A stretch of 64,000 nt of DNA from Spirometra erinaceieuropaei (taxonomy: Eukaryota > Platyhelminthes > Cestoda > Diphyllobothriidea > Diphyllobothriidae). The position numbers were made by a program, and so were the translations under genes. Shown here one piece after another: positions 7,001-50,754 of the stretch; the stretch's first letter is position 1; the number at the start of each line of letters is the position of its first letter. The notes below the pieces were generated by a model. The model searched no databases. It saw only the letters and a list, made by a program, of their open reading frames with translations, and was not told the origin of the DNA. The stretch spans positions 712,994 to 776,993 of the forward strand of contig CACRXP010000048.1 in the NCBI GenBank assembly GCA_902702965.1, given 5' to 3'.

Positions 7001-7100
7001 ATCAGAGTTGTTGTCACATGAATGTAAACAATTGACGCGTTCTAACGTATTTCAGCGTATCAGGCCTATGCTGTAAGCCCAGAGTTACCTTGGTCGCGCA
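4100..7100. other. AT-rich region, no gene recognised
   Basis: There is no supported gene. Minus-strand frames at 5,094-5,282 and 5,450-5,656 are 62 and 68 codons, show no recognisable motif, and are best treated as chance. A C-rich run lies near 4,508. The region is probably intergenic or intronic. Confidence 0.5.
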
Positions 7101-8272
7101 TTCCTTTCGGTGACTTCATTCCTTCTTCATCCCCTGAAGTCTTTTGCGAGTTTTTAACAACAGTGATTCGTCACGGTGTTAAAGCGAATAGTGTTAATAT
7201 GACACGCATTAGTAGCGTAAGACTGAATTCCTAAGAGCGCATAGTTCACTGTTTATTTACGGGTTTTTTACCGAATGCCAAGTACCCGAAATATTGTTGA
7301 GTTCCGTAGACATCCATTACGAAGAAAACTGACATAGTGTATTATTATGATCACTTGCACAGCTCGTGAGTATGATCAATTTAAGCCGACGCTCGCTGCA
7401 GGCAGACAACTGCACGTATGCATACATGTTTGCAAAGTTAATATATGTCAATGGATGTTGCCACTTTTATACAAACCAAAACGTTATGTCGATTGCAATA
7501 TAAAATGACTTATTTCACTTTTTAGCATTTGGCCTACAGCTTTTTGATTAATAACAACACACCAACGATACTCAGACGGACAAGAACGACTGGATATCCA
7601 TGACCAACTGCTAAATACTCAGCGGGGGCGTAAGCGCCTTCACGGCGGGGAATCCGGACATACCATAAGTGTCATTCCTTTCGGTGACTTCATTCCTTCT
7701 TCATCCTCTGAGGTCTTTAGCGAGTTTTCAGCATCAAAGATTTATCACGGTGTTAAAGCGAATGACGTAGATAAGACAGGTACAAGTAGCGTTAGACTGA
7801 ATTCAAGGAGCGCATTTTTATATAGTTTGCAATTTACTTGGTGGGTATAATACCGAATGCAGAATACGGGAAGTAATGTTCAGCGCTCAACGGTGAATAT
7901 ATGCATAGTGAAGAAAACATATATAGTGTATTATTTTGATCATTTACACAGTTCTTGGGTATGTTCAATATAAGGCGACGCTTGCTACAGGCAGGCAACT
8001 ACAAGTATACAAACATTTTTGCAACGTTGATATATCTCAATGGACAGTGCGAAATTACCCCAAACCAAAACATAATGCCGAATCGCAACAGAAAATAAAT
8101 TATCTTAATTATTTGCAATTTGTGTACAGGGTTTGGTAAGAAATAAAACACCCTAACAGGGCTCCGGAGGACAAGAACGACTGGATAGCCATGCCCAAAA
8201 CCTGCTTACTCAGAGAGAGATGCGTATGCGCGTCTACGGGCAAGGAACCAGGATATGCCATACCTATCATTG
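7101..8272 (+). repeat. Two-unit tandem repeat, about 574 and 598 bp
   Basis: Unit 1 (about 7,101-7,674) and unit 2 (about 7,675-8,272) align end to end. Both begin TTCCTTTCGGTGACTTCATT, continue with CACGGTGTTAAAGCGAAT and a GTGTATTATT-GATCA block, and end with a GC-richer cassette containing ACAAGAACGACTGGATA. They differ by many substitutions and small indels, so the duplication is old. A 67-codon frame in unit 2 (7,936-8,139) has no open counterpart in unit 1 and is not supported as a gene. The terminal cassette is related to the GC-richer patches near 12,630, 13,183 and 17,757. Confidence 0.8.
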
Positions 8273-8529: not shown

Positions 8530-8832
8530 TTACACGAAGCAAGTTAAGCCAACATTATTTGACGCCGCATCTGTTGCAAGCCGATTGAGCATTTTTAAAA
8601 TGTTTTTTCTCCAGGCCGCTTTAAAGGGCGTCAAAATATTCTCTTGTGCAAAAATGTCGTCCACATATAAGTCGTTGAATAGGAGTGCATCTAAATGAAA
8701 CACTCTTCTCTCTGCCAAATTGCTGGATAAAATGAAAAACTTGGCAACAGCAGACACATTCTCCACATCAAATTGCATGGAATTGATTGTCGTGAACTGG
8801 AAGCCACGAGAGCGTGTGCTGTGGGTCCTCGA
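8530..8832 (-). CDS. Terminal exon (exon Y) of unrecognised two-exon gene family, locus 3
   Basis: This is a 303-nt exon encoding 100 residues and a stop. It is preceded on the minus strand by a good acceptor (TCTGCTTTAG) and by exon X 797 nt upstream. It aligns without gaps to the exons at 28,923-29,225 and 61,068-61,370: 32 of 100 residues match, concentrated in N-x-SAVA-x-F-x-I-x-SS, R-x-x-H-x-D, WRK, LN-x-LA-x-x-AAS and a C-terminal LTC. The stop sits at the identical position. Equal length, phase-0 acceptor and shared stop support a genuine last exon rather than a chance frame. The function is unknown. The hydrophobic strand pattern around SAVA faintly recalls SEA-domain strands, but that is a guess. 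No AATAAA was noticed just downstream. Confidence 0.72.
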   Translation of the reverse strand, partial: SRTHSTRSRGFQFTTINSMQFDVENVSAVAKFFILSSNLAERRVFHLDALLFNDLYVDDIFAQENILTPFKAAWRKNILKMLNRLATDAASNNVGLTCFV

Positions 8833-9629
8833 CTAAAGCAGACATTAGAATGTACGACAACATCTTTACTTTCGTCCATCAATGAATAACGAGTCTACGT
8901 GTTCGACCTGAAGCAGTGGTTAGTGTGTTGGCATTTAGTTTGTCATGTCAGTCTAGTTTGGATGGATACAATGATAATTACACAAGGCAATCTAGTACGC
9001 TCTGTAAGTTAGGTGATCTCAAAGTATGAGAGAAACACCACCTCTATGATAATTGTGGTGCTTAAGTATAGATCAGCTTTTGAATCTAATATTCTGCACA
9101 GAGTTATACCTGGCTGCACGGATTTTCGACTAAACCAAACATGAACAAGAAAAAATAGTTGCCTTTTCGTTCCCTTTAATTAAACTGGCTGGACAATAAA
9201 CAGAAACTACTTCATCCGTTAATTCATCTCGAAATAACTGTGAACACCTCGGCGTCTCGGTGGGATTCGAAACGACGTCGGAGCGAATTATATCCCATTT
9301 GAGTCATCCGTTAATACGAATACTGATAATTACGCTATTTCGTGCCGTAAACAAATTCACAAGTTCGTTTTTTTTAATTTAATGGACATTTTAGCGGAAA
9401 GTCACTGCCTCTCTTCAATAACACCAGTCGTGCTATTTAACCGGCAAATTCAATTTATGCATTTAAGCGTATGATCGCTGGCAGTAAATCTCCTCATAAG
9501 ATACCGACTATGTGATTTGCATGAGAACGCATCTTGCCCTTAATTCAGGCAATTTTCAAATAAATTCATGCATTGTGAAAGAAAACTCTATATCTAGTTG
9601 CTCCCACCCGTCAACCTTATTAAGCTTAC
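8833..9629 (-). other. Intron between exons X and Y, locus 3
   Basis: This 797-nt interval begins GTAAGC and ends TTTAG on the minus strand. Introns at the corresponding place in the other two loci are 843 and 850 nt. All are phase 0. The intron sequence itself looks unrelated between this locus and the duplicated pair, as expected when only the exons are constrained. Confidence 0.6.
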
Positions 9630-9883
9630 ATTGAGAGAGACTTTAATGGTTATTCGTGGCAGCGTAAGATTGCATTCCAGTTGTATCATCCAGAACTCTC
9701 GAACGCCAGCAACCGTGCAGCATGAATGCAGTGTCGGATCGGTTTCAGCGGCCATCCAAAAATGCGTTACACTGTACCCCGTGTATTGCACTTTTACGGA
9801 AAATTCGGCATTCGCATGCAGTCTTTGCAGCAAAACATCGTATAAATGGAAGGTGTCTCGCGTGCCTGGACAAAACTTCCATG
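9630..9883 (-). CDS. Internal exon (exon X) of unrecognised two-exon gene family, locus 3
   Basis: This is a 254-nt exon read from a phase-1 acceptor (CTATTCTAG, with a pyrimidine-rich tract before it) to a phase-0 donor (CTCAAT followed by GTAAGC). It matches the exon at 59,964-60,217 over 85 codons with no gap and 28 identical residues. Shared landmarks are an initial AW, CP-x-T, LL-x-R-x-HA, E-x-S, YT, a cysteine at position 55, LEC and RI. Three cysteines (5, 55, 71) are conserved, suggesting an extracellular, disulphide-bonded product. The frame is open on both strands here, which could mislead a gene caller; splice-site and length conservation favour the minus strand. Upstream exons were not found. 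Confidence 0.68.
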
Positions 9884-11130
9884 CTAGAATAGAAATGTAT
9901 CCAGCATTTGAAAAAAACCCCACGTTGACTGAATGATATTTTAAACTGATGTTTACAAAAACAGTTGGAGAGATTAGTGATAATGAAAATGGTTAACATA
10001 CCTATGCCTTTTTTTTAAACGGCCCTACAATGCTTCAGCTTTAAATATTCTGTCGAATATATACTACTTTGCAGGGGATAATCGTATACACATAATCTAA
10101 ATACAACTTGGTACGTAATAAGGCATGAAGACCTTGAATATTTACGCGTACTGAAAAGGACGCATTTACTTAATGTTCATTTATATGTCCCTATGTTACG
10201 AATAAACGTTTGGATTCTCCAATACATAAATTGGTTTAGTAGTAAACGCCGTTCATATGCTCTTTATGTTGGGACTTTTAATTAAGGATTAATGCAGATT
10301 GACCGATGCGTTCCGCCAGCACATCGGCAAACAATGCTAAGATACAAGATTCATTATTTCCTTAGCATAAAATTTTGCATTAAAAGTTTCAACCAAACTT
10401 ACATTTATCCACTTTAGTCTTACAGGCCCTGTGCGATGGTAAATGCAGAAATAGCATAAATAATTTAATAAATAGGCTAAAGGACATGACTGATGATGAA
10501 GTAAAACTGTTTATTTTCGTATTTTAGAAACCATTTATACATGACACAGATAACCAATAAAATCATTTGGAGCAAGACTATGCGAAATTTTGCAGCGTTA
10601 TTTTACGCATATCGATAAAAGGTTACAGTTACCGCAGAACAGTAAGTACACCATCTTTTGGAAAACACCTAGTGCCATAGCCATCACACGTTATCATTGC
10701 GTAGTAAACTGTTCTCAGTAAACCGTAAATTTGAGTAGGAATGCAATTTTTACAATCTCTTGACGGCACCAGAATTCTTTTGTGTGATAAGTGGATATCG
10801 ATATCGTCGGATAAAGTGGATTGACGCTAGCTTGTGCAAACAGCGTTTTCATTCCACGCAGGCTCCAACGACTATTTCGACAGTAATTAAATTTTAATGT
10901 AAATTTCACATTATTTCAGGCTTGAAATCTTCAGCTTCGAGAGGATTGCTCCACACGCAGTAAGCCGTTTCTTTGACGACAACTGACTATGCCTGTGAAT
11001 GTATTTGTCAGGGAGGGAAATTAGAAAAGTTTGGAATTAAAAATTATCAGTAATTCAAAGTGAATGGCGTTCCGCGGACATTGCTGCTATTACTATCAGT
11101 ACTTCCATACGAATGCCAATAAAAATATTA
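9884..11130. other. No gene recognised; possible upstream intron of locus 3
   Basis: If locus 3 is a spliced gene, this lies in its 5' intron. A minus-strand frame at 10,715-10,909 (64 codons) has reasonable amino-acid composition, but I found no counterpart upstream of the paralogous exons, so it is not claimed as an exon. The rest is AT-rich and featureless. Confidence 0.4.
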
Positions 11131-17913: not shown

Positions 17914-19335
17914 GTGCCCAAGGCCTCTGAGCAAATCGCATAGCCATTATTTGCTTCTATGCGCATACTTTTTGCTTATGTGATATTTTTACATAAATGA
18001 AGACAGACGTACAGAAAGACAGTTTATCCGCCTTTGAGAAGCATGACCTGCAGTTGGTTTATTGTACTGCTTACGTTGATTCAGCAAATGCGGCTAACGT
18101 TGACCTGTCGGAAGGTCATGGAGACGCGTAGGTTATATTACTGCGACTCATTCCTAAACTCTATCTACTATTGTACCATATTATTTATTTTAGTCTCTTG
18201 TTCGTCTACGAGCGTATTTTACATCGCAATATGGATTTATGTGCATGGGGGACCGTGCACTACAACAGTGTAAGATGTATCGAACTTTTTTGCCACTGCA
18301 TGAATTTTCGTGCAAAAAGAGTGCACTGACAGTGTAGTGCCGGATAGCCAGTATTTGGTTGGTAATAGAACCAGTAGATCTTTCATTTACATTTAATTTT
18401 GATGAGATTGGCTTTCAGTGAGTGACTGATTTTATGAAATGTTGTCCGAAGTTCTGATATTCTGAATTTCTGAAATTCAGATTAGAAAGTTGTTTATGGC
18501 GTGGCTGTAAAACTGCTTATCTTACGGCACGATACACTTATATGGGGCACGTAGATGGATATCGGCTTTAGAATTTACTTTCTTTTCATCTTTCTGTTAA
18601 AAGCGTAGTCGGCAATTAGTAGCCGCTTAGTAGCATGCATGCATTTTCACATTGATTGTCAGCGGTCCTATGCATTCAAATATGTGTTATTAATGTCATT
18701 CGCATACATGTGCTTTTTACTCGAGACGTACATATTTTACCCGACGAATGTGTATATTAAGGTTTTCAACAATCTTTCCACAAACCGTTAATTTTCGAAC
18801 CTGTTTAGATATTGCATTAGCGTTTTCCGGTTTTAAATGTGAAAAGCGCATTCCTCCCTCGTAAATAAAGTGAAATATTCATATTTGCCTTTAAGGAGAT
18901 ACTATATAGAGTTTATTAAATTTCGCAGTGAATGCAGATTATGTTGCCCATTTTTAAGGAGCATCTGCAAACGCACATGTACGGCTCTGTACGCATACCC
19001 GTCGCAAGGGATTAAAAGCTGATATCGAAACGTGTATTTAAACCAAAATGTCCCATTTTGCAGGGTATATAATTCGTTAACAATTTCATTTCCTAGGGAA
19101 CAAGTTACTAACAGTTTAACTTGTGCCAGTTTTCTGCAATGTATATTTGATTGAATATGACTGTTGAAAATGATTGTAAAAACGCGTGCATATGACGTGG
19201 TGATTGTTGCGGAGTTTGAATTTTGGCCGAAAAGACGTAAATTCAAAAGCCAAAAAGACTGAAAGAGAACAGAATTATACGGCAGGTTAAACAACATTAC
19301 CACATCGATAAAGGCAAAGAAGACTGAACTATTTA

Positions 19336-19500: not shown

Positions 19501-19715
19501 GTGACCGCCCGCTACCATTGAATATTCCGGATCTAAACCGACACGGCAACGGTCTGGTGTCTCAGTGGTTACAGGCGTGGACTTCAAATAAACAGGTCGT
19601 GAATTGGAGTCTCAAGAATTTCACAATTCGGGGTTGGGTATGACTGGTTGACGACGTCTAATAAGCCAAACATGGCCATTATAGTCTTTCTTGCCTTTGT
19701 CTGTAATGTCATAAT
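19500..19715 (+). mobile_element. tRNA-derived SINE, plus orientation, 5' part
   Basis: The A-box-like TCTCAGTGGTTACAGGCG (about 19,559-19,576) and a degraded B box (GGTCGTGAATTGGAGTCTC, about 19,595-19,613) are spaced as in a tRNA-derived polymerase III promoter. The body continues with GGTTGGGTATGACTGG and GACGTCTAATAAGCC, then TCTTTCTTGCCTTTGTC. The SINE is interrupted at 19,715 by a Penelope-like insertion and resumes at 23,516 with GTATCATGCACCGCTGTGCG. The uninterrupted counterpart is at about 55,420-55,710. Confidence 0.65.
19706..19715 (+). repeat. Target-site duplication, left copy
   Basis: ATGTCATAAT immediately left of the Penelope-like insertion, repeated at 23,506-23,515. The empty site in copy 2 (about 55,627-55,636) has one copy reading ATGTCATTAT. 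Confidence 0.8.
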
Positions 19716-20858
19716 GTCTTGCGCAAGAGACTTGAAGAGGCGTACGATGAGACTCAGAATGCCCTCAAAATTGAACGCCTCATGAGGCTGTTTGAATTCT
19801 GCCAACAAACTTTCTTCACTTTTGCGGGAGAGACCTATGAACAAATCAAGGGAACCCCTATGGGCTCACCGGTCTCCGGTTTGGTGGCAGAACTGGTCCT
19901 ACAGGAGTTGGAAAAGATTGCCTTCCTCCAACATGAACCGGTATTTTGGCGACGTTACGTTGACGACACGTTCGTCATCGTAAAGAAGGACATGCTGCAA
20001 CATTTTCACAGCCTGCTCAACGCAGTCGTCCCGGATATAAAATTCACGAGAGAAGAAGAACAGGAGCAGCAGTTGCCCTTCCTGGATGTGCTCGTCTGAC
20101 GAATCCTTAACGGTGAACTTGAAACGACGGTTTATAGGAAGGCAGCGAACACCACACGGCTTCTCAGTTTTCACAGCAACCATCCGGTGGCTCACAAACG
20201 AAGCTGTGTGAAGACGCTCTTCAAACGGATCTAAACTCATTGCAGCAAACTGGAAGACAGAGCGCGTGAGGCCCGTTATCTCCGCGACCAGTTTGTGCAA
20301 AATGGCTATCCGAGGGCATTGATAAGTCGCTGCCTACGCGGTCGCCACCAGAGAACTCAAACATCAACGCCACCGACGATATGGCATGCTCTGCCATACA
20401 TCAAGGGTGTTTCAGAAGCGACCGAGCGCAATGCTGCGGAGCTAGGAGTTGGAATCGCACACCGCCCCAAAGCCACCATGCGCAACAGGGTCATGAAGAT
20501 CAAAGACCGGTTAAAACCTGAAGAGCAATCTGGAGTAGTGTATCGCATTCCGTGTCAAAATTGTCCTTGTAATTACACAGGACAGACTGGACGCATGCTC
20601 GGATCGCGCATACATGAACATAAGCTGGCTGTGCGGCGAGGCGACGCATTGTCACAAGTGGCTGCCCACACCTACGAAATGGGTCACGAGTTTGACTTCG
20701 CCGACACCAAAATAGTCGCCCACGCCGGAAACAAAACAGGCCGAGAATTGATTGAAGCCTGGGCCTCGGATGAGAACTCGGTCAATCGAGTTATCGATCT
20801 GGCGCCGGCGTACAGAGCCCTGCGTTGTCACCTCCAGTCGTGCGACGTCGGTCGCTGA
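19716..20858 (+). pseudogene. Penelope-like RT C-terminal part and GIY-YIG endonuclease, upstream truncated copy
   Basis: This single reading frame starts abruptly inside the RT (LRKRLEEAYDE), runs through GTPMGSPVSGLVAELVLQEL and RRYVDDTFVI, meets TGA at 20,097 and TAA at 20,232, and continues in the same frame through the linker to the GIY-YIG domain and a natural stop at 20,856. The domain shows VVYRIPC, a C-x2-C-x-C cluster, NYTGQTGR, R-x-HEHK and HTYEMGHEFDF. Unlike the downstream copy, it keeps GGA at the position equivalent to 22,351. The N-terminal half is absent by truncation. Confidence 0.9.
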
Positions 20859-20909
20859 TTGGGTCTACGTGCCTTATAACTGTCGCTTGTCCTGTTTCTG
20901 CCACTACCT

Positions 20910-20940
20910 CTGACGATGGACTCCTGTACGAGTCTGAAAG
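20910..20940 (+). ncRNA. Hammerhead-core-like hairpin in pLTR copy
   Basis: CTGACGA fits the CUGANGA core string. It is followed after one T by a 6-bp helix (GGACTC pairing with GAGTCT, one G-U pair) and then GAAA, as in a hammerhead's stem II flanked by its two core strands. Penelope-like elements are known to carry hammerhead motifs in their pLTRs. I could not place a convincing cleavage strand (UH plus stem I), so this may be a relic or another structure. Confidence 0.4.
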
Positions 20941-20948
20941 CTCAGGAT

Positions 20949-20954
20949 AATAAA
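20949..20954 (+). promoter_or_regulatory. Possible poly(A) signal AATAAA
   Basis: AATAAA 20 bp before the TTC tract that ends the element copy. It is repeated at 23,449-23,454. The position fits 3' end formation of the element RNA. Confidence 0.5.
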
Positions 20955-20974
20955 CGAATTGTTCCGGTGCTCGA

Positions 20975-20992
20975 TTCTTCTTCTTCTTCTTC
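20975..20992 (+). repeat. (TTC)6 at end of upstream Penelope copy
   Basis: Six TTC units at the junction between the two element copies. The outer 3' end at 23,475-23,501 has nine. Variable short repeats at the 3' end are consistent with target-primed reverse transcription slippage. Confidence 0.85.
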
Positions 20993-20996
20993 AAAT

Positions 20997-21287
20997 ATGT
21001 GTACACCTGGAACTCGAAATTTCGCCTTCATTCGTGAAACATTCGGGCGCTATGCGCTTCGGACAGCTCGCAGCTGGGAGTTATTCTCTACACGAGAGGC
21101 ATCAACATACGTGCAGCTACGTTTTCTGCACCGATGTCTCCAAGACGAACTAACCCCACGATGCCTGAGATATAAAGCTCCAGTTAATACGGCCATGGGA
21201 AGAGAAGTTGTGAGGCGGTTTGTCAAACAGATGACAAGAGTTCTGATCGACGACTGTCACCGGCGTTTGCAGAAGTACAAAGGCTGA
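20997..21287 (+). pseudogene. Penelope-like protein N-terminal region
   Basis: The frame opens with ATG right at the junction of the two copies and encodes about 96 residues, including RFLHRCLQDELTPRCLRYK and a RLQKYK end, the usual pattern of the Penelope N-terminal region. It then stops at 21,285. The continuing RT sequence (AEIEENRRQC and onward) lies in another frame from about 21,287, so a single frameshift separates this piece from the RT. The start position matches the expected protein length for the family (around 790 codons to 23,358). Confidence 0.8.
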
Positions 21288-22599
21288 GATCGAGGAGAAC
21301 AGAAGGCAGTGTGTCCACACTCTCGGCGATTCTATCGCCGCAGATCTTGGGAAGACGATCTCTGCTCTGGCACACCACAGGCAAGCCAAGAAGAGAGAAG
21401 TTTCGGAACGGAAACTGACTAAGCTAAAACCACCAGGCACAGAAAGCTCAAACTTGCTCCACAACCTCTCGTCTAAGCAGCTAACAGAGCAGCAACTACG
21501 AGTGTTGCAGCATGAAACGTGTTTCAACACTGCAGATGCCGATCCTGTCGACTTCATTGCAGCCCTGGAAGCCATGCTTGTGAGAAGTGAAACATCCGAC
21601 GACATAAAACACTCCGTCCGACAGCGTGTTACCTTTTTGCTGATGACACACAGACCAACCAAATGTATTTCACAGAGTGAGTCAAAGGCTATGAGAGAAC
21701 TGAGGAGGGACGACAGCATTATCATTCTACCTGCTGACAAGGGACGATCAACCGTCGTGATGAATAGAGAAGACTATAATGAAAAAGCTAAAGCCCTTCT
21801 TGATGACAGAGAATTTTACAGACCAGCACAGAAGTCACAAGCCAAAGCAGTGGCAGATCGGCTGAGTAAACTGCTTAGAGAATACCGACATAAAAATGTG
21901 ATCACGGAGAATGAATGGCACCAAATGAGGGCAACTGACACCGCTCTAGCCCGATTCTATGGTCTGCCAAAAATCCATAAAGCAAATGTCCCACTTCGGA
22001 CAATCGTTGCCCTCAAAGGCAGCCCCACCTACAACTTGGCAAAGTGGATGTACTCAAAACTGAAGTTCCTACAAGGCAATTCGACTACCTTAGTTCGATC
22101 AGCCTCTCAATTCCTCATAGACCTCCGAGGTCGGAGAATTCAATCGGACGAAGTCATGGTCTCCTTCGATGTGACGTCGCTATTCACATCTATCCCACCA
22201 AACGTGGCCCGCGATGTCTTGCGCAAGAGACTTGAAGAGGCGTACGATGAGACTCAGAATGCCCTCAAAATTGAACGCCTCATGAGGCTGTTTGAATTCT
22301 GCCAACAAACTTTCTTCACTTTTGCGGGAGAGACCTATGAACAAATCAAGTGAACCCCTATGGGCTCACCGGTCTCCGGTTTGGTGGCAGAACTGGTCCT
22401 ACAGGAGTTGGAAAAGATTGCCTTCCTCCAACATGAACCGGTATTTTGGCGACGTTACGTTGACGACACGTTCGTCATCGTAAAGAAGGACATGCTGCAA
22501 CATTTTCACAGCCTGCTCAACGCAGTCTTCCCGGATATAAAATTCACGAGAGAAGAAGAACAGGAGCAGCAGTTGCCCTTCCTGGATGTGCTCGTCTGA
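21288..22599 (+). pseudogene. Penelope-like reverse transcriptase, downstream copy
   Basis: The RT begins in the frame of 21,454. Visible motifs are ILPADKGRSTVVMNREDY, LPKIHKANVPLRTIV, motif A VSFDVTSLFTSIP, motif B PMGSPVSGLVAEL and motif C YVDDTFV. The frame is broken by TGA at 22,351 (GGA in the upstream copy, so a single G-to-T change), and by TGA at 22,597, which the upstream copy shares. The domain synthesises cDNA from element RNA at the target site. Everything except these breaks looks intact, implying recent insertion of an already defective template. Confidence 0.88.
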
Positions 22600-22734
22600 C
22601 GAATCCTTAACGGTGAACTTGAAACGACGGTTTATAGGAAGGCAGCGAACACCACACGGCTTCTCAGTTTTCACAGCAACCATCCGGTGGCTCACAAACG
22701 AAGCTGTGTGAAGACGCTCTTCAAACGGATCTAA

Positions 22735-23358
22735 ACTCATTGCAGCAAACTGGAAGACAGAGCGCGTGAGGCCCGTTATCTCCGCGACCAGTTTGTGCAA
22801 AATGGCTATCCGAGGGCATTGATAAGTCGCTGCCTACGCGGTCGCCACCAGAGAACTCAAACATCAACGCCACCGACGATATGGCATGCTCTGCCATACA
22901 TCAAGGGTGTTTCAGAAGCGACCGAGCGCAATGCTGCGGAGCTAGGAGTTGGAATCGCACACCGCCCCAAAGCCACCATGCGCAACAGGGTCATGAAGAT
23001 CAAAGACCGGTTAAAACCTGAAGAGCAATCTGGAGTAGTGTATCGCATTCCGTGTCAAAATTGTCCTTGTAATTACACAGGACAGACTGGACGCATGCTC
23101 GGATCGCGCATACATGAACATAAGCTGGCTGTGCGGCGAGGCGACGCATTGTCACAAGTGGCTGCCCACACCTACGAAATGGGTCACGAGTTTGACTTCG
23201 CCGACACCAAAATAGTCGCCCACGCCGGAAACAAAACAGGCCGAGAATTGATTGAAGCCTGGGCCTCGGATGAGAACTCGGTCAATCGAGTTATCGATCT
23301 GGCGCCGGCGTACAGAGCCCTGCGTTGTCACCTCCAGTCGTGCGACGTCGGTCGCTGA
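22735..23358 (+). pseudogene. Penelope-like GIY-YIG endonuclease domain, downstream copy
   Basis: Open from the TAA at 22,732 to the natural TGA at 23,356. Its protein is identical to that of the upstream copy. Key residues are VVYRIPC, CNYTGQTGR (the YIG-equivalent strand), an arginine and histidines in R-x-HEHK, H-x5-GHEFDF, and ELIEAW, which probably holds the catalytic glutamate. It is in the same frame as the RT part but separated from it by two in-frame stops. The enzyme nicks target DNA to start reverse transcription. Confidence 0.88.
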
Positions 23359-23409
23359 TTGGGTCTACGTGCCTTATAACTGTCGCTTGTCCTGTTTCTG
23401 CCACTACCT

Positions 23410-23440
23410 CTGACGATGGACTCCTGTACGAGTCTGAAAG
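23410..23440 (+). ncRNA. Hammerhead-core-like hairpin, downstream copy
   Basis: Identical to 20,910-20,940. Its presence at the 3' end of both element copies would place one motif on each side of the unit-length RNA. Confidence 0.4.
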
Positions 23441-23474
23441 CTCAGGATAATAAACGAATTGTTCCGGTGCTCGA

Positions 23475-23501
23475 TTCTTCTTCTTCTTCTTCTTCTTCTT
23501 C
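23475..23501 (+). repeat. (TTC)9 at 3' end of Penelope element
   Basis: Nine TTC units followed by AAAT and then the right target-site duplication. Confidence 0.85.
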
Positions 23502-23505
23502 AAAT

Positions 23506-23515
23506 ATGTCATAAT
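23506..23515 (+). repeat. Target-site duplication, right copy
   Basis: ATGTCATAAT, matching 19,706-19,715. The host SINE resumes immediately after it. Confidence 0.8.
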
Positions 23516-23592
23516 CTCTGTATCATGCACCGCTGTGCGTCTCCTAGTTGGACTCGGAAGAGAGCCCATAAGGCACAACGGAACGAATAATT
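23516..23592 (+). mobile_element. SINE 3' part, resumed after the Penelope insertion
   Basis: GTATCATGCACCGCTGTGCG, TTGGACTCGGAAGAGAG and CATAAGGCACAACGGAACGAAT follow directly, as in the uninterrupted copy at 55,637-55,712. Confidence 0.55.
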
Positions 23593-24087
23593 TCCTTATG
23601 AACTATCGGTCAGCGCTAATTACTATATCAACACCACCTTAATAATCCTTTATAATTGGAGACACCGTTTACACTTTCGGCCAAAATTTTATCAAGTCGG
23701 TGAATCACTCTATGGAAATATTTTGCATATTTCGGAATTATTCGAAAGCTTACCTTTATAAGTAATGTGGGTTGTTTGCGCCGCCACGTGCACATACATT
23801 GGCCACGCCTACATTTTAAAGCATTAAGGGACAAGCATTAGTTTTTTCGTCAAACATACCTTGGGATGATTTGCAGTTGGTAGGTTGCCACAAAAAAATA
23901 AATCGAATTTCCCACATGCGTTGCTCTTTCCACAATAGTCAAAAATTTGGGTTGTACGACTGAGTACTAAGGAAATGCCGGAAATGCTTCACAGCCAGGT
24001 AAGTGGCAAGTGCTTCACGGCCAAAATGTACTGTATCGTGTCTCAGCTGGTAAGACCTTTTTTGGAGAAAAAGGCAAGTGGTCGAGT

Positions 24088-24402
24088 CTAACCAGCAATG
24101 CGTTGTTGAAGGGCTGCACTTACGGCTACGGTCGAATCATCTTCCATCAGAGACAACTGAGCTTCGGGAGCGGGATGTGTGAGTAAGGTAGCATCAGCAA
24201 GGGAATTCTCGATTCTCTCAAAAGCAGTCAGTACTTCACCAGTTAGCTCGAGGGGACCATTGGGACAAGAAAACATGTTGGTGAGCGGCAGCATGAGGTC
24301 AGCACTGTTTGGTAGGAACCGACAGTAAAAATTGACCATGCCGAGGAACCGCTGTAACTGACGCTTGGAAGTTGGAGGAGGAAAATTACGAACTGCTTCA
24401 AC
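24088..24402 (-). pseudogene. Gypsy RT C-terminus and RNase H start, copy 1
   Basis: Continues the RT frame after a TAG at 24,403. MVNFYCRFLP is the conserved connection motif, and the stretch ending in LSLMEDDSTVAV is the start of RNase H. The copy-2 version reads MVDAS at the first catalytic aspartate, whereas this copy has E-D-D. A TAG at 24,088, shared with copy 2, ends the frame. Beyond it FGREALATYLAVKHFRHF can still be read before the truncation point. Confidence 0.78.
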
Positions 24403-25600
24403 CTAGGATGGGAGGGAATGCAAACATTTAGACTCGAACTTGTCACCAAGGAACTCCAGCGAAGGCACACCCAACACGCACTTGGAGGGGTTGATGACAA
24501 CGCCAAACTTGTCAAGGCGGTCAAACACCAAGGAAAGGTGTTCTTTGTGTTCTTCTTCATTCCGGCTGGCCATTAAGAGGTCATCAATGTAGGCGTACAC
24601 AAAGGGTAGGCCACGCAAGACATGGTCAATGAACCTTTGGAACGTTTGAGCGGCATTGCGAAGACCAAACGGCATGCGGACGAACTCAAAGAGACCGAAG
24701 TGTGTGGTGACGGCGGTTTCAGGGATGTCCGCAGTGGCGACTGGACTCTGATGAAAAGCACGCACCAGATCAATCTTCGAGAATACTGCTTTGCCAAAAA
24801 GGGCTCCAGCAAAGTTCTGAAGATGACGCACGGGGTACCGATCAGGAATGGTAGCGCTGTTGAGGGCACGATAGTCGCCACTGGATAACCAGTCGCCCGA
24901 TGTTGCCTGGGGCACCACGTGCAGTGGAGACGCCCAAGGTCTCTCGGAAGGTCGAATTATTCACAATTGCAGCATGTGTTCAAACTCCGCCTTTGCGTCC
25001 TAAAAACGCTCCGGTGATAGTCGTCTCGGTCGAGCAAACAGGGGAGGACATGAGGTGCGAATGTGGTGCACAACATCATTTTGAACTTCACCACTGCGAA
25101 TCTGTGGGTTAATTATTTTGGGATGACTAAGCACCAGTTGCCGAAAAGGACTAGCAATAACCGTATTCAAGAAAGATAAGTTGGTGGGGGCAGTAAAGAG
25201 ACTTAGTCCACGAAAAAACAAACCGGTAGTGCGGTCGAGGAGACGGGCACGTGGGCAGTCAACAAGGAGTTCGAACTCGGCAAGAAAGTCCGAGCCGAGG
25301 ATTGCATGAGGGACATCAACAATCAAAAAGGTCCAGGCAAATAACCGACGAAGGCAAATGTTCAGGGTGAGGAACGACTGTCAAAAGTGGGAACGGGGAA
25401 CAGTTAACAGCTTGAAGAATAAGACCAGTGCTAGGGAAACGACGATCAGCTGCAGTTGGGGGAACAACACTGATTTGGGCTCCAGTGTCCACAAGAAAAC
25501 GTCTGCGAGTCGCAGTGTCGGAAACATAGAAGGTGCTACCAGAGCCGGAACAGCCAGAAAAAACGGTCGCATCTATTCTCTGGCTGACTGGTTTCCCTGT
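24403..25600 (-). pseudogene. Gypsy protease and reverse transcriptase, copy 1
   Basis: The protease active site DTG is encoded at 25,489-25,481 within FLVDTGAQISVV, and ILGSDFLAEF marks its C-terminal part. The RT follows with DVVHHIRT, GDYRALNSATIPDRYP, FSKIDL (catalytic Asp), FVRMPFGLRNAAQTFQRF and YAYIDDLL. Stops interrupt it: TAG at about 25,000 (private; copy 2 has CAG), TGA near 24,965 (shared) and TAG at 24,403 (shared). These enzymes would process the polyprotein and copy the RNA, but this copy is dead. Confidence 0.88.
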
Positions 25601-25665
25601 TTCGGTTTAAAAGAGCAGGGTGAGGAACAATGACGGGCCTTTACGCCGAAATTAGTGTGATACCA

Positions 25666-26359
25666 TCAAGTATCAGCAGTCCGAGGTCGCGAACGAGAAC
25701 GACGACGGCTGTGTGAGCGACAGGAAGCTATGCGTTCGAGCTGTATTTTAAGGTAGGCCATGTCATCCGCCATGGCCGAAACCTGTTTCAATAAATTTTT
25801 ATTCACTGACGATGAAGATGAGGAGATCCTGGCAACGGATGGTGGCTGGAATCGCTGAACCTCTATTATTCGATCCGCCATCTCAGCCAGCTGTGAGACC
25901 GTAAGGTCTTCAGAGGCGGAAGCCAGGATTGCCTGAACATCTGCGGGCAGACCGTCTAGGAAAATGTCCCTGACAAGTTTATCGTCTACTTCCATGTCTC
26001 CAAAGAGAGATCGCATTCGACGTGGATGCTCTGAAGGCTTCCGATCACCCAGTGACTCCTCCTTAAATAACTGATGATACCGCTGTCGGTCAGATACAGA
26101 ATTAAGTCGTAGAATTTCCGCCTTTAACCTGGAGAAAGGAGCATCAACAGGAGGATTAGCTAGCAAGGACTGAACTTGAGAGATGACACTAGCGGGGAGG
26201 ACCTCCACAAGTTTGTGGTATTTTGCTAGTTCCTTGGTAAGGATGGCAGAATAAAAGGCTGATTCTATGCGGATGAAGTAAAGTTCTGGAGCGTGTTGCC
26301 GGAATTAAGGCAAGGTAAAATTGGGCGGGGACATCAAGTTGTTGATTGGAGTGAGACAT
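25666..26359 (-). pseudogene. Gypsy gag, copy 1
   Basis: It starts MSHSNQQLDVPAQF at 26,359, but a 17-bp deletion relative to copy 2 (near 26,325) shifts the frame. The rest, from MEVLPASVISQVQ, runs to a TGA at 25,666. That stop replaces the first cysteine of the zinc knuckle: the sequence resumes WYHTNFGVKARHCSSPC just downstream. The serine- and arginine-rich stretch before the stop (about 25,680-25,830) is a probable nucleic-acid-binding region. The Cys-to-stop change is shared with copy 2. Confidence 0.8.
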
Positions 26360-26364
26360 AATTA

Positions 26365-26682
26365 GAGAGAGGTGGCAAAATATCAGAATTCGTGAGGAAA
26401 GTAAATGCAAATTGGATAGATATTCACAAACAAAAAAACCTTAAATCTTATGCAGTACGACAGAAAGGTATAGTCTGCGTTAACGGCGGGAGTTATCAAT
26501 GTCGTAAGACGTAACGTTCTCACGAACTAGCGAGTTATATCTCACTAGCCCCTAGCCTTAAAGGCAGCAAGTAAAACGGAACAGTGAATAATATAGATAA
26601 TTTGAACGTTAAGAAAACTTAACAATAGAGCACGGAACACGGTAGCAAGGCGGGTTGTACATGTGTGTCGTTTCTTGTCACA
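26365..26682 (-). repeat. Probable 5' LTR and leader of gypsy element, copy 1
   Basis: The roughly 320 bp upstream of gag starts TGTGACAAGAAACGACAC on the minus strand, and TG is the usual LTR start. It carries a GATATAACTCG-like TATA region. A weak primer-binding-site candidate (TTTTGCCACCTCTC) sits just before the gag ATG. No second LTR exists to confirm the edges because the element is truncated. Confidence 0.45.
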
Positions 26683-26803
26683 TTCAAACAAGCAATCCGG
26701 TCAAAGAAAATGGGAGTAAGTTGTCAAAGGTAAATTAGTCAGGTACCTCACCACTTGGTCATCATACAGCATATGTCTACATCAATTTAATTACCCCAAG
26801 ATG

Positions 26804-27340
26804 CGGCCTTTCGAACGAAGTTTTGTCCGGTTGCATAGAAATGCCGCACTCTGTATCAAGTAAATACATTAAAAGGAGACATTTTTCCCATTGGTTTTCC
26901 GTGCCCAAAATAATTCAATTATATTGCATACGAAATATTATACGAATATTAAGTCCTTTGCTCATTCGATGGAACACTATGTTTTCTTTCAATGTTTACT
27001 GGAAAAAAGCGGATGATTCGGATTTTAAAACTTTCCTAATTCCCGAATATTTTTCTAACACGATTAGCCCTTACACTTGCGTTTTTTAATCTCCAAACTA
27101 CAAGATTCTTATATGATGCGTGCAGAAAACCATATGTTTCTCCACGGTATTGGAAGAAAAAATGGGGATCATAAAACTTATCAGTGTATTTGAGCCATTT
27201 TGGTGACCTTAAAGGCCAATTTGGTAGATGCAACTACATTAAATTTTATAAATGGACATTTGGCGATATTAAAGAATCGCAAATTTGAAAACTTTAAAAA
27301 CCAGATTATGTCCTTTTTGAATACAAGATTTGAAGAAGGT
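26804..27340 (+). repeat. Dispersed repeat R1, plus orientation
   Basis: Blocks in order: GTCCGGTTGCATAGAAATGC, CCGTGCCCAAAATAATTC, CTTTGCTCATTCGATGG, CTCCAAACTACAAGATT, AGAAAACCATATGTTTCTCC, CAATTTGGTAGATGCA, AAATGGACATTTGGCG and CAGATTATGTCCTTTTTGAA. The 88-codon frame at 26,823-27,089 is open in both duplication copies but lies entirely in this repeat. Confidence 0.65.
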
Positions 27341-27587
27341 GTAAGTTCCTACGAAATAAGAAAAATAATGAATATTATGAATTAAGCTTTGCATAAATAT
27401 AATTGCATTTTAAGCGTATCACCAATCAACAAGTAAGATGCATGCTGTATAAGTAGTCATTCTTTACAGGGTATATGCTTTTCATGCTTAAAATATCCAC
27501 CCAAACGTACGGCATCCTAAACTAACTGATTTATAAGAATAATACGCTGCACGCTGAACAATTTTCGATAAAAAGTTTTTTTGTCTT

Positions 27588-27620
27588 CGATGACGTATTC
27601 GAGTAGGAATCCGAAACGTC
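27588..27620 (+). other. Hairpin with GAAAC end, resembling the pLTR hairpin
   Basis: CGATGACG, an ATTC/GAAT helix with GAGTAG in the loop, then CCGAAACGTC pairing back to GACG. Its layout resembles 20,910-20,940 and 51,471-51,500, but it lacks the exact CUGANGA string. Copy 2 has it at about 59,726-59,760. Confidence 0.3.
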
Positions 27621-27824
27621 AGGCTAAAAAAGCTATTGTCCCGGCGATCGTGTCGCATTATTCAATATCTCGAGTTGGCCCACCTACTGCACATCTGTCG
27701 CATTTTCGCCTACTCAAAACGAATATGAACGTTGATTTGTTTTATAATTAAACAGTATTTTAACATTTAACAAGCATACCTAAATTGACTTCTACATGTA
27801 ACTTTCTTATGTCCGCTTAATAAG

Positions 27825-28079
27825 CCTGGCCACTCTGTCCACGTACCGGAGGGAACGTCTTTATTTCCGATATCTTACTGAATAGAATGCATGCGACTCC
27901 CGAATTTTCAGAAGACCTTCCGTACACAGACAACAGCAAAACTCAATTCCGAATGATTATTCAGCCTCACCCAGTACTTCGTGCATGCTTCCTTATAAAT
28001 AACACTGAAGGAGCCGCAATCGTAAGACTTGAATGTACTCTTATTTTTTTCACGCATTGACTGCAACGTTCTTCTGAAG
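27825..28079 (+). pseudogene. Exon X of unrecognised gene family, duplication copy 1 (frameshifted)
   Basis: Same exon as 59,964-60,217, with acceptor CTTAATAAG and donor AAG/GTAAAC, but one extra T in the run at 28,044-28,050 (seven T here, six in copy 2) makes it 255 nt and shifts the frame to a TGA a few codons later. Upstream of the insertion the reading is intact. Three of its residues (EFS, QFR, HPV positions) match locus 3 where copy 2 differs, so this copy keeps ancestral states despite being broken. Between the copies I count five non-synonymous and two synonymous changes. Confidence 0.68.
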
Positions 28080-28922
28080 GTAAACACTTTTAATTTGATT
28101 CGTATTTCTTTATGCCTATCATATGCTATTTTATCGTTTAATTGAAAAAGCCGGTTTAAATTATTCTATATGCGCATTTATCCAGAAAGGCAAAAACCGC
28201 CGAGTCACATTTGCTGCTGTTGGAACTGCTTGCTCACCTTAAATATCTGGGGCCTATAACAATTTGTATAAGTTTCCTCTGTATAATTGCAAAGCATGCT
28301 CGAAAGGAAACAAATATAGCGACCGACTAGGTCTATGCAGAATGGGTCTGCTCTGAAACGCGTTTGGCGTTGTATTTATTGTATGTCATATTTGGTGCCT
28401 GGACGTTGGCCTGATAAACTGCTACAAATATGTTTTTGGTATTCTCTGATCTGCTTCGTAAAAGTTTATTTTAAGGATAATAAGTAAACTCTATGCGTTG
28501 TTGGACTAATAGCTTCGGATAAAAGCAACACTTCCCAAAGATATGTAGTGTATCAAAGGAGACAGCGACCAGACTTTTATGCATTTATTATATGGAAAAA
28601 AGTTGCTCCTTGTGGTGCCACACGTATATACCTAAAGCGCTGTTGATTCATTTATGGAATCTGGATCACGACTGACTGGGCTGAAACAAGCTTTAGCTAT
28701 CATAGTATGGCAATCCCTGTTTAACAGGCAAGCTGCCTCACTTAAACGTAAACGTTTAATTTAACGCTGCAATGTCAACCGAAACGGTATAAAAGGAAAC
28801 GTTTTAGCTTTTATTGAAAATACGCGAGCAAAACAGAAGTTTGAAAGGCACTTGCATAATCTATGTCAAATTTATTTTGATGAATAAAAACAAAAACTAA
28901 ATCATGCCTAAACTGGGTTCAG

Positions 28923-29225
28923 GTAAACGATGGCCTGGCTAGGTTGCTTGGACTCCCGTATCGGACAGCGGATTTGATGAAATTTCACCTTCTGAACTTT
29001 TCTGCGGTCGCTGAATTTTACATCATTTCGAGTGAGCTGTCAAAGGAAAGAATATTGCATTTTGATGGAATTGTTTTTTCCAGAATAGACGCAGGCATCA
29101 CTCCGGGAAAAAGGACCACCCCATGGCCTGCGGATTTTCGGTGGAGAAAAAAAACCATTAATGAGCTGAACCAATTAGCATCAAATGCGGCTTCCAGCAA
29201 GTTATTTTTGACATGTCGCCTGTGA
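28923..29225 (+). CDS. Exon Y (terminal) of unrecognised gene family, duplication copy 1
   Basis: This is a 303-nt exon after AACTGGGTTCAG, phase 0, ending TGA. The frame is open throughout, although its partner exon X is frameshifted. Shared residues with locus 3 include N-x-SAVA-x-F, SS-x-L, R-x-x-H-x-D, WRK, LN-x-LA and the terminal LTC. Against copy 2 there are nine substitutions, five synonymous and four amino-acid-changing (E/A, F/Y, G/A, K/R). The intron before it is 843 nt (28,080-28,922). CAG/GTAAAC at its start also looks like a donor, but locus 3 has no GT there, so an acceptor is the better reading. Confidence 0.7.
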   Translation, partial: VNDGLARLLGLPYRTADLMKFHLLNFSAVAEFYIISSELSKERILHFDGIVFSRIDAGITPGKRTTPWPADFRWRKKTINELNQLASNAASSKLFLTCRL

Positions 29226-29719
29226 ACTAGAGGTTGCATGTGCAGGGGAACTGCAGCTGTGCGTATGTAATATGAAGGCGAATTGGGATTTACAATCGTT
29301 ACTCTTTACTGTGTTCTTTATTTCTGTCTTGGCATAAAACCAATCAAATAATTGTGCTGCAGCTTCAACATGAAATGATTTCTGAAAAGACATGCCAGCA
29401 ATTTTACATTTAGGAATACAGTCTATAGTGCCGAAGGTTTTATTGCCAGCTTTAAAAATTCACCGGTGGAGATGATATAGACGGTAGAATAGTCGGCTAG
29501 GCTAAACCAGAAACAAATAATGACCCGAATTGCATGAACACTCCCCGTAACGGCTACATCTGATCATGACATATTAAGATCTTCGTAGAATGATTGTGAG
29601 TACTTATGACTTATGTATGAAAACCAACAGTGTAGCATCGATTTAAATGACCTAAGCAGCTCGTATTGGGTATCCTGCAGAGAGACTTGATCAGATACCA
29701 TACCATACACGTCAGTCAT

Positions 29720-30655
29720 CCAGTCTGTAGACTTAGCATGCAGCACTTTGGAAAGTCTTTGTTTTTTGTGTGTCCAATGCCCTGGCCTATGCTTGCAGGT
29801 CACATTCAGTAGTTTCCATGGAATATGTTCGATAGAGCTGCCTCTCGGATACTCCACACATGTTCCACCACACACTTGGGATTGAATGATATCCAGTTTT
29901 CAGGTAGGCGTTTTGACATTTATGCCGCTTCTCCGCCCTTGCGATCTGCACCTCATACAAAAAATGGAAGAGCAGCTGTCCGTATTTGTAAACGACTTAA
30001 GCCGAAAGCTATTACAGACGGGATAATCAGCACTGTCTGACCGAACAGTTCGTTAACTCCGCAAGCATTAAACAATGTTGTTGTCCTTTGATGATTTCTA
30101 CAAAATTTAAAGCGGTAACACTTATTGCCGACTGGCAAATTATTAAAAATTACTGTTAATCTCCCTTTTTGGCGCAAATCGTCTCACGTCGCTCAGCCAG
30201 TCTGTAGACTTGGCATGCAGCACTTTCGAAAGTCTTTGTTGTCTGTGTGTCCTATGCTCTATTTGGTCTCGCATAAGGCTAGCCTATATTTGCAGGTCGG
30301 ATTCAACTGTTTCCATGAAATATGGTCTACAGGGTAGCTTCTCAGACATTCCACGCATGTTGAATGTAAATGACATCCTGTTTTTCAGGAAGAAGTTTTG
30401 ACATCAATTCCGCTTCTCTGTCCTTGCGATTTGCACTTTATCTAAAAATGGGACGGCGGCTGTTCGACGCTGACCGACATGATCACCAGCACCGTCTGAA
30501 CGAAAGTTTAATGGACTCTGTTCGCATTGAGAAATATCGCTGTCGTTTATTCTTTTCTGTAAAATTTAAAGCAGCATGACAAATTGCAGAAGGGCGAATT
30601 ACTAGCAGTAACCGTCTTTCCTCCTTTTTGCCGCAAATCGTCTCATCCTATTGTC
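29720..30655 (+). repeat. Two-unit tandem repeat, 477-bp period
   Basis: Units begin CCAGTCTGTAGACTT at 29,720 and 30,197. Both contain GCATGCAGCACTTT, GAAAGTCTTTGTT, TTTTCAGG-GTTTTGACAT, CCGCTTCTC-CCTTGCGAT and CGCAAATCGTCTCA, with roughly a quarter of sites different by eye. Frames at 29,825-30,040 and 30,370-30,579 occupy the same position in the two units (FSGR-x-FDI, A-x-S-x-x-LR) but diverge quickly and are probably repeat-derived. The same pair occurs in copy 2 from 61,865 and 62,342. Confidence 0.75.
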
Positions 30656-30659
30656 TCAT

Positions 30660-31784
30660 TATCTTCAAACGATAATGTATTTTTAAATTCTGGACACAAC
30701 CGGTTCATTCACTGAGTAAGCCAGTATTTTGTTACAATTTGCCGTGTGCATATTCTGTCTGCTGAATAATTAAACAGGCAGCACAATTTATTTAGCTGGG
30801 ACGTTAAGTTAAAATTTCAAGAAGCAAATGTAATCAATGAGAAGGTTAAGTAATGTATTCATCGTCATGCCAACTTGTACAGTTTACATTTGAGTCCAAA
30901 CGTGCGTCGTATCTGAATAATATGACAATTCTCAAGAGTCAAATTTGCGATAGTACAGATCAAAGTTATTAACGCTGTTATTTAAGTTCAGCGTAAACAC
31001 TTAAACAAACATTTGCAGATTATTCTGCCATATCATCTGTTTATGTATAGGTCTGTTGGTGAATAACTGAAAGTGAACAATGAACGAACGATTTCATAAA
31101 ATCGTGGCCTGAATTTTACAATGCGTTTCACTTCAGTAAGAATTAGTTATATTGGATTGCAGATTGATTGTCATGGCGCATAATTTAATAGTATTTCAGA
31201 CTTCTCAAAATGTTAACTTTTCAATGTACGTCATGTAAACTTCCCACAGAAACAAAACGCGGGAAAATGCAATGTAGGTTTAAGCATCCTTCTCCATTTA
31301 TTTTTTGATGGTCTTATAAATGCAAACATACTTTGCAGCTATATGGCAGAATAATATTCTTTCATTTACTCGTTTGGTAGAAAATGCAATCGTATCCGCA
31401 TTGAATGCCCTGCGATGAGTGATCCTCCGCAAATTTCTATGAACTATAATGTAATGGCTGCTTAGACTCACACAAATTCGGGAATTAAGAAACTTCTGAA
31501 ACCTTAATATGCTAATATTGCGATGTACAATGTAAATTCAATGTTAATTAATGCCGAACGAGAAAAATCTCACATTTCTGAGATATTTTCTGTAAAATAT
31601 ATTTGGATTGTATAAGAGATCGAAAATCAGTGTAAACATGCGCGCTAATAAGTAGCCTTTTTTACTGAGTGTGGTTTTTGCAAGAGGTTAAAACGAAGTA
31701 TATTCAAAAGCCTACATCTTGGAGAGTCCAGAATACTTTAGGATTCTGCCGGTGGATAGTCAATTACTAAACCCTACCTAATTA
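30660..31784. other. AT-rich region shared by both duplication copies, no gene recognised
   Basis: Collinear with about 62,800-63,950. No frame or motif of note. Small private indels occur (for example near 31,438 versus 63,585). Confidence 0.5.
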
Positions 31785-32800
31785 ATCCTTCCTAATCAAA
31801 AACACATTTCAGAAGTTCGGCAAACATTTCTTTGGTTCTGTTGAGCAAAGTACGTTTACTAAAATTGATTAACCTGAACATGATAATTATTAGTGAACAA
31901 TCACACCTATAAGTTTACAGTGGTATCGGAAGTTTTATTAACTGCAATGGACTAATTATTTGTCCGTGGACAAATATGAAGCGTTTTCTCTTTAGATCGG
32001 CAGGTATACATGTTGTCTCTATATCGTGGCTCTACTTTAGTACACAGATGGTACGCAAGCTGATAGGTCAGTTTTGCGGACATCAGTACTTCAGTTTAAT
32101 TTGATGTAAAAGCTTAAAGATAATGTTTGATAATCCAAGGCGTAGTGAGAGCATGTACTTCAACCATATATAAAAAGGTGCTTGCTAGTGTGTGCAATGT
32201 CACAGCTTCAGACTCGTAACGAAAATAAATTTCGGTTGTCCGAGTGCACACATAGCTGCTCCTAATAAAGTACTTACTGAAGTTAACCACCGACGATGCT
32301 GACGTTACATGTTGCATGCGTGGAATCATGTCTACTCAAGTCAACCATATCTCAATGTGATTTCAACATTTTCTTCAAGTACAGATTAATGCCATTTGAA
32401 GATTAGGTTTAGATCATAAGTATTTGCTCAGACTCAACGGACGGTCTTGTCGGTAGAAAAAAACGCAATGTTACGCTACAAGTGGGGTTATGTTCTAATC
32501 TGTGTTTCACCATTGGCGATGTTGCATATGAGTACTTGAAACAGTCACTGCTGGATTTTCGCTCTCTGGATAAGCTGGCAGTTTTTAAAGATGAGAATGT
32601 ATCACAGGGACTACCGTGCCATGGACTCAATGGCACAGTCGATGCCAACTATGAGGTGCTTTAGCACATCCAATCCATTCAACCTGGAGAAATAATTTAT
32701 GAATTAAAGTACAGTGAGTGCCCGATATCATGAAATGTTGGCTGAAATTCTGAAATGCGTTTTCGATTAGGAAGAATTACTTGGTCGCGGTTGTAAAACT
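31785..32800. repeat. Inverted-repeat-flanked interval (G module 31,785, A module 32,725)
   Basis: The left end reads TTAATCCTTCCTAATCAAAA, CACATTTCAGAAGTTCGG and AAACATTTC. The right end reads CATGAAATGTTGGCTGAAAT, TCTGAAATGCGTTTTCGATTAG and GAAGAATTACTTGG, which is its reverse complement with some mismatches. The 60-codon frame at 32,482-32,664 within it is not recognised. The left end marks the last base matched to copy 2 before the window edge. Confidence 0.5.
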
Positions 32801-50127: not shown

Positions 50128-50618
50128 GCAAAAAACGATTACTTTGGTATCATACAATTTTATCTTTGATGCTCGATGCCCACGAAAATTCAGTCATAAT
50201 TCATGAAAACAATGTGTAGAAGTATTCATTCTTTGCTAATTCGTTGGCAAATTACGCCCTCATCCAACTGTATATTCGACGGAAGTGTATAATTCGGTTT
50301 TAAAAACTTTTATAATTCCGAATATTATTGAACCCCACTTACTGTTATAATTGCATGCGGGGTTTCAAGTGCGCAAGCCGTGTTATTTTCGTGTACGAAA
50401 CTCCCTATATTTTCCTAGGGTATTAAAAGGATATTATATGCGCCTCACCAAATTAAGCCGTGAATTTGACGAATATTGTCAACTTTACATCCCACATTAG
50501 TAAATGCAGATTCATAACGTTGTATGAACGTCCACCTCACGGTATAAAAAAATCTCACAAACAGAAGCTTATCACAATCGCATCGTACTCGTTTTTCGAA
50601 TATACAATTAAAAGCAGA
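50128..50618 (+). repeat. Dispersed repeat R1 (copy 2)
   Basis: Partner of 14,951-15,440, collinear and only a few percent different. Confidence 0.6.
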
Positions 50619-50754
50619 CGCAATTTTCTAGCGCATAGGTAAAGGAATTAATAGTTTCATAAATTTTTGTGCATGCAATACATTTGAACTTTTAATAACA
50701 TTGAGAGTAAAAGAGAAAGTTGAATGCTGCCTAAATAGTTAATTTTACCAGCAT

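Follow-up and report, generated by a model that had tools for sequence, protein, structure and literature searches.

Three loci of Spirometra erinaceieuropaei with a common exon geometry as probable members of a large family of predicted secreted proteins

The DNA analysed here, hereafter the window, is a stretch of 64,000 nucleotides from the genome of the tapeworm Spirometra erinaceieuropaei (contig CACRXP010000048.1, positions 712,994 to 776,993). At three places it carries an internal and a terminal exon of nearly constant lengths, and a sequence-only reading did not recognise the family. Are these exons parts of genes that have been kept as proteins, and what kind of protein would they encode? 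The overall result is best read, at a probability of about 0.6, as three loci of a large family with three predicted exons, encoding small secreted proteins that would likely act outside cells at the host-facing surface.

Exon geometry of the three loci

Of the three loci, the old one is on the minus strand and is called A-type; copy 1 and copy 2, both on the plus strand, are called B-type. Exon 2 of the old locus (9630–9883) is 254 nt long, begins with the final two bases of a codon and ends in phase 0. Its terminal exon (8530–8832) is 303 nt long including TAA. The corresponding exons are located at 27825–28079 (255 nt) and 28923–29225 (303 nt including TGA) in copy 1, and at 59964–60217 (254 nt) and 61068–61370 (303 nt including TGA) in copy 2. 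The same exon lengths had been given in the sequence-only reading, and they agreed with the coordinates re-read from the sequence. AG and GT at equal aligned positions and introns of 797–850 nt had also been claimed, and direct reading bore this out, with 797 nt at the old locus, 843 nt in copy 1, and 850 nt in copy 2 between exon 2 and the terminal exon. When splice sites were scored against a simple consensus, the donors ranked in the top 2% of the GT sites of the window and the acceptors in the top 3–22% of its AG sites. The stop had been described as the same at all three loci; its position is common, but the codon is TAA at the old locus and TGA in copies 1 and 2. One of the shared strings, WRK, had to be corrected as it reads WRR in copy 2. 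The frame is lost within the 255-nt exon of copy 1, and therefore this copy is broken as it stands.

The proteins encoded by exons 2 and 3 of the old locus and copy 2 were aligned. No gaps were required and 59 of 184 residues were identical, in line with the share of about one third proposed from the letters. The BLOSUM score was 270, far above the maximum of –61 from 20,000 shuffles (z 16). Identity by codon position was highest at the second position and lowest at the third. A weak match at 35387–35602 (E 0.24) was considered as a fourth locus and dropped, as exon profiles gave no confirmation. Exons 2 and 3 were also compared as a possible internal repeat, and this was rejected as well (hhalign probability 0.3, E 0.2, with 21 of 150 shuffles equally good). 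Tandem pairs of direct repeats of approximately 460–600 bp (66–73% identity) lie 3′ of all three terminal exons, at 7099–8271, 29708–30645, and 61853–62790; those of the old and the new loci had no DNA similarity in blastn. A piece of 50–60 bases in intron 2 of the old locus (approximately 9277–9220) occurs on many contigs at 81–90% identity and is likely a short dispersed repeat.

Copy 1 and copy 2 are held by the two copies of a segmental duplication. The left one (11394–31829), which is interrupted by insertions, contains copy 1, and the right one (46600–64000), which reaches the window end, contains copy 2. Their identity is about 95%, with 400 differences in 8315 aligned bases between 23506–31829 and 55628–64000. 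A 600-bp block that extends into and 5′ of exon 2 of the B copies (59422–60021 against 27286–27883) differs at 4 of 597 sites as compared with 4.8% over the duplication, which may reflect constraint on regulatory sequence or gene conversion. A retroelement (19706–23519) is located within intron 1 of copy 1; it has 1279-bp direct terminal repeats that are 99.84% identical and a 14-bp target duplication (13 of 14 bases alike). It gave a sub-threshold GIY-YIG match, its relatives carry reverse-transcriptase models, and we take it to be Penelope-like. Since this element is missing from copy 2, it was inserted after the segmental duplication. Retroelement remnants older than the duplication are located on the minus strand in intron 1 of both B copies (24403–26304 and 56212–58582); they match RVT_1, RT_RNaseH_2, and DUF7041 and are presumably Gypsy-like.

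A candidate first exon with a predicted signal peptide

The sequence-only reading overlooked the first exon of each gene, with its predicted signal peptide, and the genome-wide family. Upstream exons did not emerge when copy 2 was compared directly with the old region at the protein level. Comparison of five paralogues with the old locus gave low-divergence blocks at both known exons, upstream of them, and at several non-exon places. One of the upstream blocks consists of an ATG and 28 codons with a hydrophobic core, ending at a GTAAGT donor. At the old locus, this predicted coding exon 1 (10403–10487, minus strand) comprises 85 nt from the ATG to the donor, that is, 28 codons with a cysteine at codon 22 (Cys22) plus one base; exon 2 supplies the other two bases of this split codon. 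A signal-peptide scan found the first exons of A-type genes and of a further type, C, which is described below, and none for copies 1 and 2. The first exons of these two copies were obtained by a search for the 28-codon layout over 15 kb, carried out without the donor-score filter. They are located on the plus strand at 18043–18127 in copy 1 and at 54063–54147 in copy 2, and each has 85 nt, a predicted signal peptide, and the donor GTAGGT. The 85-nt layout thus recurs in A-, B-, and C-type genes, the B-type including one paralogue outside the window. Both strands of the window were then scanned for an open frame of 28 codons from an ATG, then one base and GT, with a hydrophobic core and a cysteine at codon 22, a pattern written after the exons had already been seen. 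Three sites only were returned, one at each locus, and these correspond to the first exons described above. In twelve random sequences matched in dinucleotide composition, the frequency was 0.08 per 64 kb.

The sequence 5′ of the predicted start was also inspected. At the old locus, TATAAAT lies 52–46 bases 5′ of the ATG (10533–10539, minus strand) and is a candidate core promoter. In the comparison of upstream sequences, ACATAAAT was found approximately 50 bases 5′ of the ATG of copy 2 on the plus strand. At about –50, TATAAAT is present in five of the six A copies shown and CATAAAT in all three B copies shown; in the two C copies shown, different A+T-rich strings are found there.

The predicted gene model is therefore composed of three exons encoding 213 residues. 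Over this length the A protein of the old locus can be aligned with the B protein without gaps, and 67 residues are identical. The old copy has two N-x-S/T sites, at residues 100 and 138, where N-glycosylation is possible. The signal peptide was called from hydrophobicity and position only. In three A copies (g3, g5, and g6) another ATG precedes the chosen start in frame, and in one C gene a rival exon 1 candidate scored higher; the start codon is therefore a choice. Between the old locus and g8 or g6, the difference in exon 1 is 0.22–0.25 against 0.26 in the introns. As exon 1 is as divergent as the introns, no constraint is demonstrated for it, and for this reason it is the least secure part of the gene model. 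Signal peptides often evolve fast. Exon 1 is presumably used, and its signal peptide presumably cleaved.

Family size, gene arrangement, and constraint

The sequence-only reading had made its proposal depend on homologous exon pairs in related genomes and on spliced reads; such pairs were found elsewhere in the same genome. The terminal exon of copy 2 was used as a query against the 758.7-Mb assembly, in which the window lies on contig C48, and gave 147 matches (150 of 153 candidates scored). At E ≤ 1e-3 there were 112 matches on 35 contigs, or 111 places as two of them overlap on C48, and 72 of the 112 lie outside contigs C48 and C42. No inner stop is present in 98 of the 112 matches, and stops occur in the other 14. 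An open frame of 96–100 residues was found in 63 of the 98 stop-free matches; in cases with an in-frame TAG as acceptor, this frame is as long as the exon. One match (G000:C52:1130763-1131002) is within an open frame of 3580 residues, which is possibly an effect of an N stretch. The 30 top loci, including the three of the window, were read with the terminal exon placed by an exon profile. The terminal exon has 100 codons in 28 of them, 99 in one, and 102 in one, with an inner stop in three. AG directly precedes it in 28 of the 30 (the exceptions are L039 and L041). Exon 2 was found within range in 25 of the 30 loci, four of these copies containing stops.

Most of the copies read have an exon 2 of 254 nt and a terminal exon of about 303 nt. 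Cys4, Cys54, and Cys70 of exon 2 are present in 24, 24, and 25 of the 25 copies, respectively. In nine diverse members, hand-picked among those read, Cys4, Cys54, Cys70, and Cys182 (numbered over exons 2 and 3) are invariant, and Cys22 is present besides in the A, B, and C types. At two distant loci, on C67 and C171, exon 2 spans 84 codons and is followed by a donor GT; the terminal exons comprise 96 and 100 codons. At C67, exon 2 opens in the same phase directly after an AG; at C171, no AG stands at exactly that position, and exon 2 is interrupted by a stop. When the complete old locus was used as a DNA query (40 of 225 candidates scored), paralogues were returned on C48 and C42 only, and matches on other contigs were confined to the intron piece of 50–60 bases. 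The C-type terminal exon was not found within 5–13 kb by reading the stretches alone. The genome search located C-type terminal exons just past the stretches read, for example at C42:580123-580416, and locus L047 carries both C-type exons.

Across 204 kb examined on C48 and C42, 19 loci were identified: ten A, four B, and five C, a broken locus at C42:424613 being typed as C. Sixteen of the 19 form eight divergent pairs, three of A with B and five of A with C, and such pairs recur in clusters. The loci outside such pairs are g8, g4 (for which a short flank was read), and copy 2. In the window, the old locus on the minus strand stands back to back with copy 1 on the plus strand. Their ATGs are 7.6 kb apart, so that a shared promoter is not implied. 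An exon 2 tree grouped B and C apart from A with a support of 0.986, as expected if an ancestral pair of A with B/C had been duplicated many times.

Selection was examined mainly in the A copies. Six of the ten A loci read are open throughout (212–213 codons) with all splice sites kept, and the other four (g2, g7, g9, and g10) have stops, frame changes, or no exon 2 in the stretch read. For exons 2 and 3 of the open copies (old locus against g3, g4, g8, g6, and g5, and g6 against g5), dN/dS was 0.27–0.68, and in the full table of A pairs it ranged from 0.27 up to 0.86. In six of six pairs, which share sequences and are thus not independent, pN was lower than the intron difference (p ≤ 0.0015 in five and 0.10 in one), and it was also lower than pS (p < 0.05 in four). 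The old locus differs from g5, g6, and g8 by 0.13–0.17 in exons 2 and 3 and by 0.26 in the introns, that is, the exon value is half to two thirds of the intron value. Against g4, the exon difference of 0.043 is nearly at the intron level of 0.050. Evidence of constraint between copy 1 and copy 2 is weak. In a neutral simulation at 14% change, 3% of the runs kept a copy stop-free. The A copies are under moderate constraint, as judged from these comparisons, with fast change and regular copy loss. The proposal of a spliced protein-coding family under protein constraint is thus upheld by the codon-position pattern and by the lower coding than intron divergence.

Relatives, competing explanations, and biological meaning

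Known relatives were sought in several collections. Full proteins and single exons gave only sub-threshold rows in Pfam at a maximum E of 10, where the HMMER filters drop most matches above approximately 0.1. ETX_MTX2 (PF03318) matched copy 2 at E 0.058 (13.7 bits against a cut-off of 22), one of seven full-length members at E 0.082, and none of five further proteins, and was treated as chance. Zn_ribbon_3 (E 0.28), Adeno_Penton_B (0.17), PUD1_2 (0.1), and DUF5484 (0.085) were likewise sub-threshold and taken as chance. A PDB search up to E 10 gave no relative; its single row, a cyclohydrolase at E 0.18, looks like chance. In a protein collection at E ≤ 10, copy 2 (184 aa) had no match among word-sharing proteins of about 101–322 residues, and the terminal exons had none among proteins of 0.55–1.75 times the query length, a limit that leaves out full-length A-type proteins. 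As a control, the retroelement protein encoded at 21247–22353 gave 937 matches in the same collection. Among the 120 listed, the best were from Sparganum proliferum and Spirometra erinaceieuropaei, with up to 90–94% identity, and the best Dibothriocephalus protein had 73%. The collection therefore contains proteins of close relatives, and the family itself had no match there. The same similarity places the window, most likely, in a diphyllobothriidean tapeworm near Spirometra. No relative was found in viral_contigs (queries A1, A2, and A5) or in genome_contigs (query A2). The former is uninformative here because the retroelement protein of the window also had no match in it. Rfam and tRNA scans of the 64-kb window were empty, and the literature searched held no paper pointing to the family or its exon geometry. 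The description of the family as undescribed accordingly holds within Pfam, PDB, one protein collection with its length and word limits, and the literature searched.

The fold was considered from single exons only. Their AlphaFold models had mean pLDDT values of 46.6 and 42.8, too poor for fold assignment. The strand-helix-strand stretch at the C terminus recalls, in our view, half of a SEA domain, and SEA (PF01390) had no Pfam match with full proteins or single exons at a maximum E of 10. The predicted succession of strands, then a helix and a final strand, which is of low confidence, would be reminiscent of a lipocalin. The hallmark of lipocalins is an eight-stranded barrel with a GxW motif. 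No lipocalin match was found by sequence in Pfam or PDB, and the single-exon models were too poor for a fold comparison.

Micro-exon genes (MEGs) are flatworm multigene families whose small secreted proteins are encoded by numerous symmetric exons, each only a few dozen nt long. The present family is likewise a flatworm multigene family of predicted small secreted proteins; its three coding exons of 85, 254, and approximately 303 nt, however, do not have the MEG architecture. Further parallels come from the Sparganum genome, in which orthogroups encoding secreted proteins without known function are reported to be expanded, among them the plerocercoid-immunosuppressive factor P-ISF (orthogroup OG0000083), described as a cysteine-rich glycoprotein (PMC8166898). 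P-ISF and the expanded Sparganum and Spirometra orthogroups, which come from the same group of worms, resemble the family in being multi-copy, lineage-expanded, mostly provided with signal peptides, and mostly without known function (PMC8166898). The family itself has Cys22 and, within a mature protein of about 190 residues, four invariant cysteines, and it is not strikingly rich in cysteine. The family may be one of the unnamed published orthogroups. The gene set of an Australian Spirometra is reported to have been predicted on a repeat-masked assembly (PMC12249497). Masking of this kind could, in our view, conceal a family of such high copy number.

An extracellular location is suggested by the predicted signal peptide, the two possible N-glycosylation sites, and the conserved cysteines. 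The family is read as fast-evolving and predicted to be secreted, with the host interface as its likely site of action. Exon 1 would encode a signal peptide that is cleaved off, leaving a mature protein of about 190 residues, possibly a domain of mixed beta/alpha type stabilised by the four invariant cysteines. Divergent pairs, with A back to back with B or C, would be duplicated as segments to give new copies, of which some would decay and others diverge. The products would be released at the host interface and diversify under host recognition or according to host targets. A bolder version, which we regard as rather doubtful, is a new-fold superfamily of more than 100 secreted proteins confined to diphyllobothriideans and missed through repeat-masked gene finding, a variable host-directed arsenal arising from duplicated gene pairs with two protein types each.

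Other explanations were weighed against the same data. The genes could be real and their products secreted yet serve the worm itself, as vitellarian or eggshell, tegument matrix, gland, or gamete proteins, with copy number and change reflecting dosage or reproductive conflict. The TATA-like boxes near the ATG in five of six A and three of three B copies agree with this, as such a box and a secreted design suit any highly expressed gland product. We consider it possible, and about half as likely as action at the host interface, that the products serve reproduction or the surface of the worm itself. It is improbable that the window copies are mostly relics of an old family, no longer making protein and bearing the marks of past constraint only. 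Copy 1 is broken, four of ten A loci are damaged, stops occur in 14 of 112 terminal-exon matches and 4 of 25 exon 2 copies, copies 1 and 2 show little constraint, and exon 1 shows none. Such decay, however, is hard to reconcile with six A copies open over 212–213 codons when 3% of neutral runs stay stop-free at 14% change, with exons 2 and 3 diverging half to two thirds as much as the introns between the old locus and g5, g6, and g8, and with pN below pS in all six pairs.

The sequence-only reading had also named a known transposon as the finding that would overturn it, and the exons gave no transposon sign. A transposable element carrying two or three exons would account for more than 100 matches dispersed on 35 contigs and for the segmentally repeated units. 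Nevertheless, DNA copies of the whole old locus were found on two contigs only (40 of 225 candidates scored), distant copies with about 30–47% protein identity to the query retain the two exons in the same splice phase, an arrangement that would be lost by retroposition, the retroelement domains detected lie inside intron 1, and no Pfam transposon model matched the exons. This origin is therefore very unlikely. A large family of predicted secreted proteins that likely act at the host-facing surface remains the preferred reading.

Large fast-evolving secreted families hold much of the host-facing biology of parasites. The present family is recognisable by its exon geometry, with more than 100 matching terminal exons and no relative within the limits of the protein-collection searches. 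The three-exon gene model, with its exact junctions, is directly testable against existing RNA-seq. Should the genes be expressed, current gene sets may lack an entire class of tapeworm secretions.
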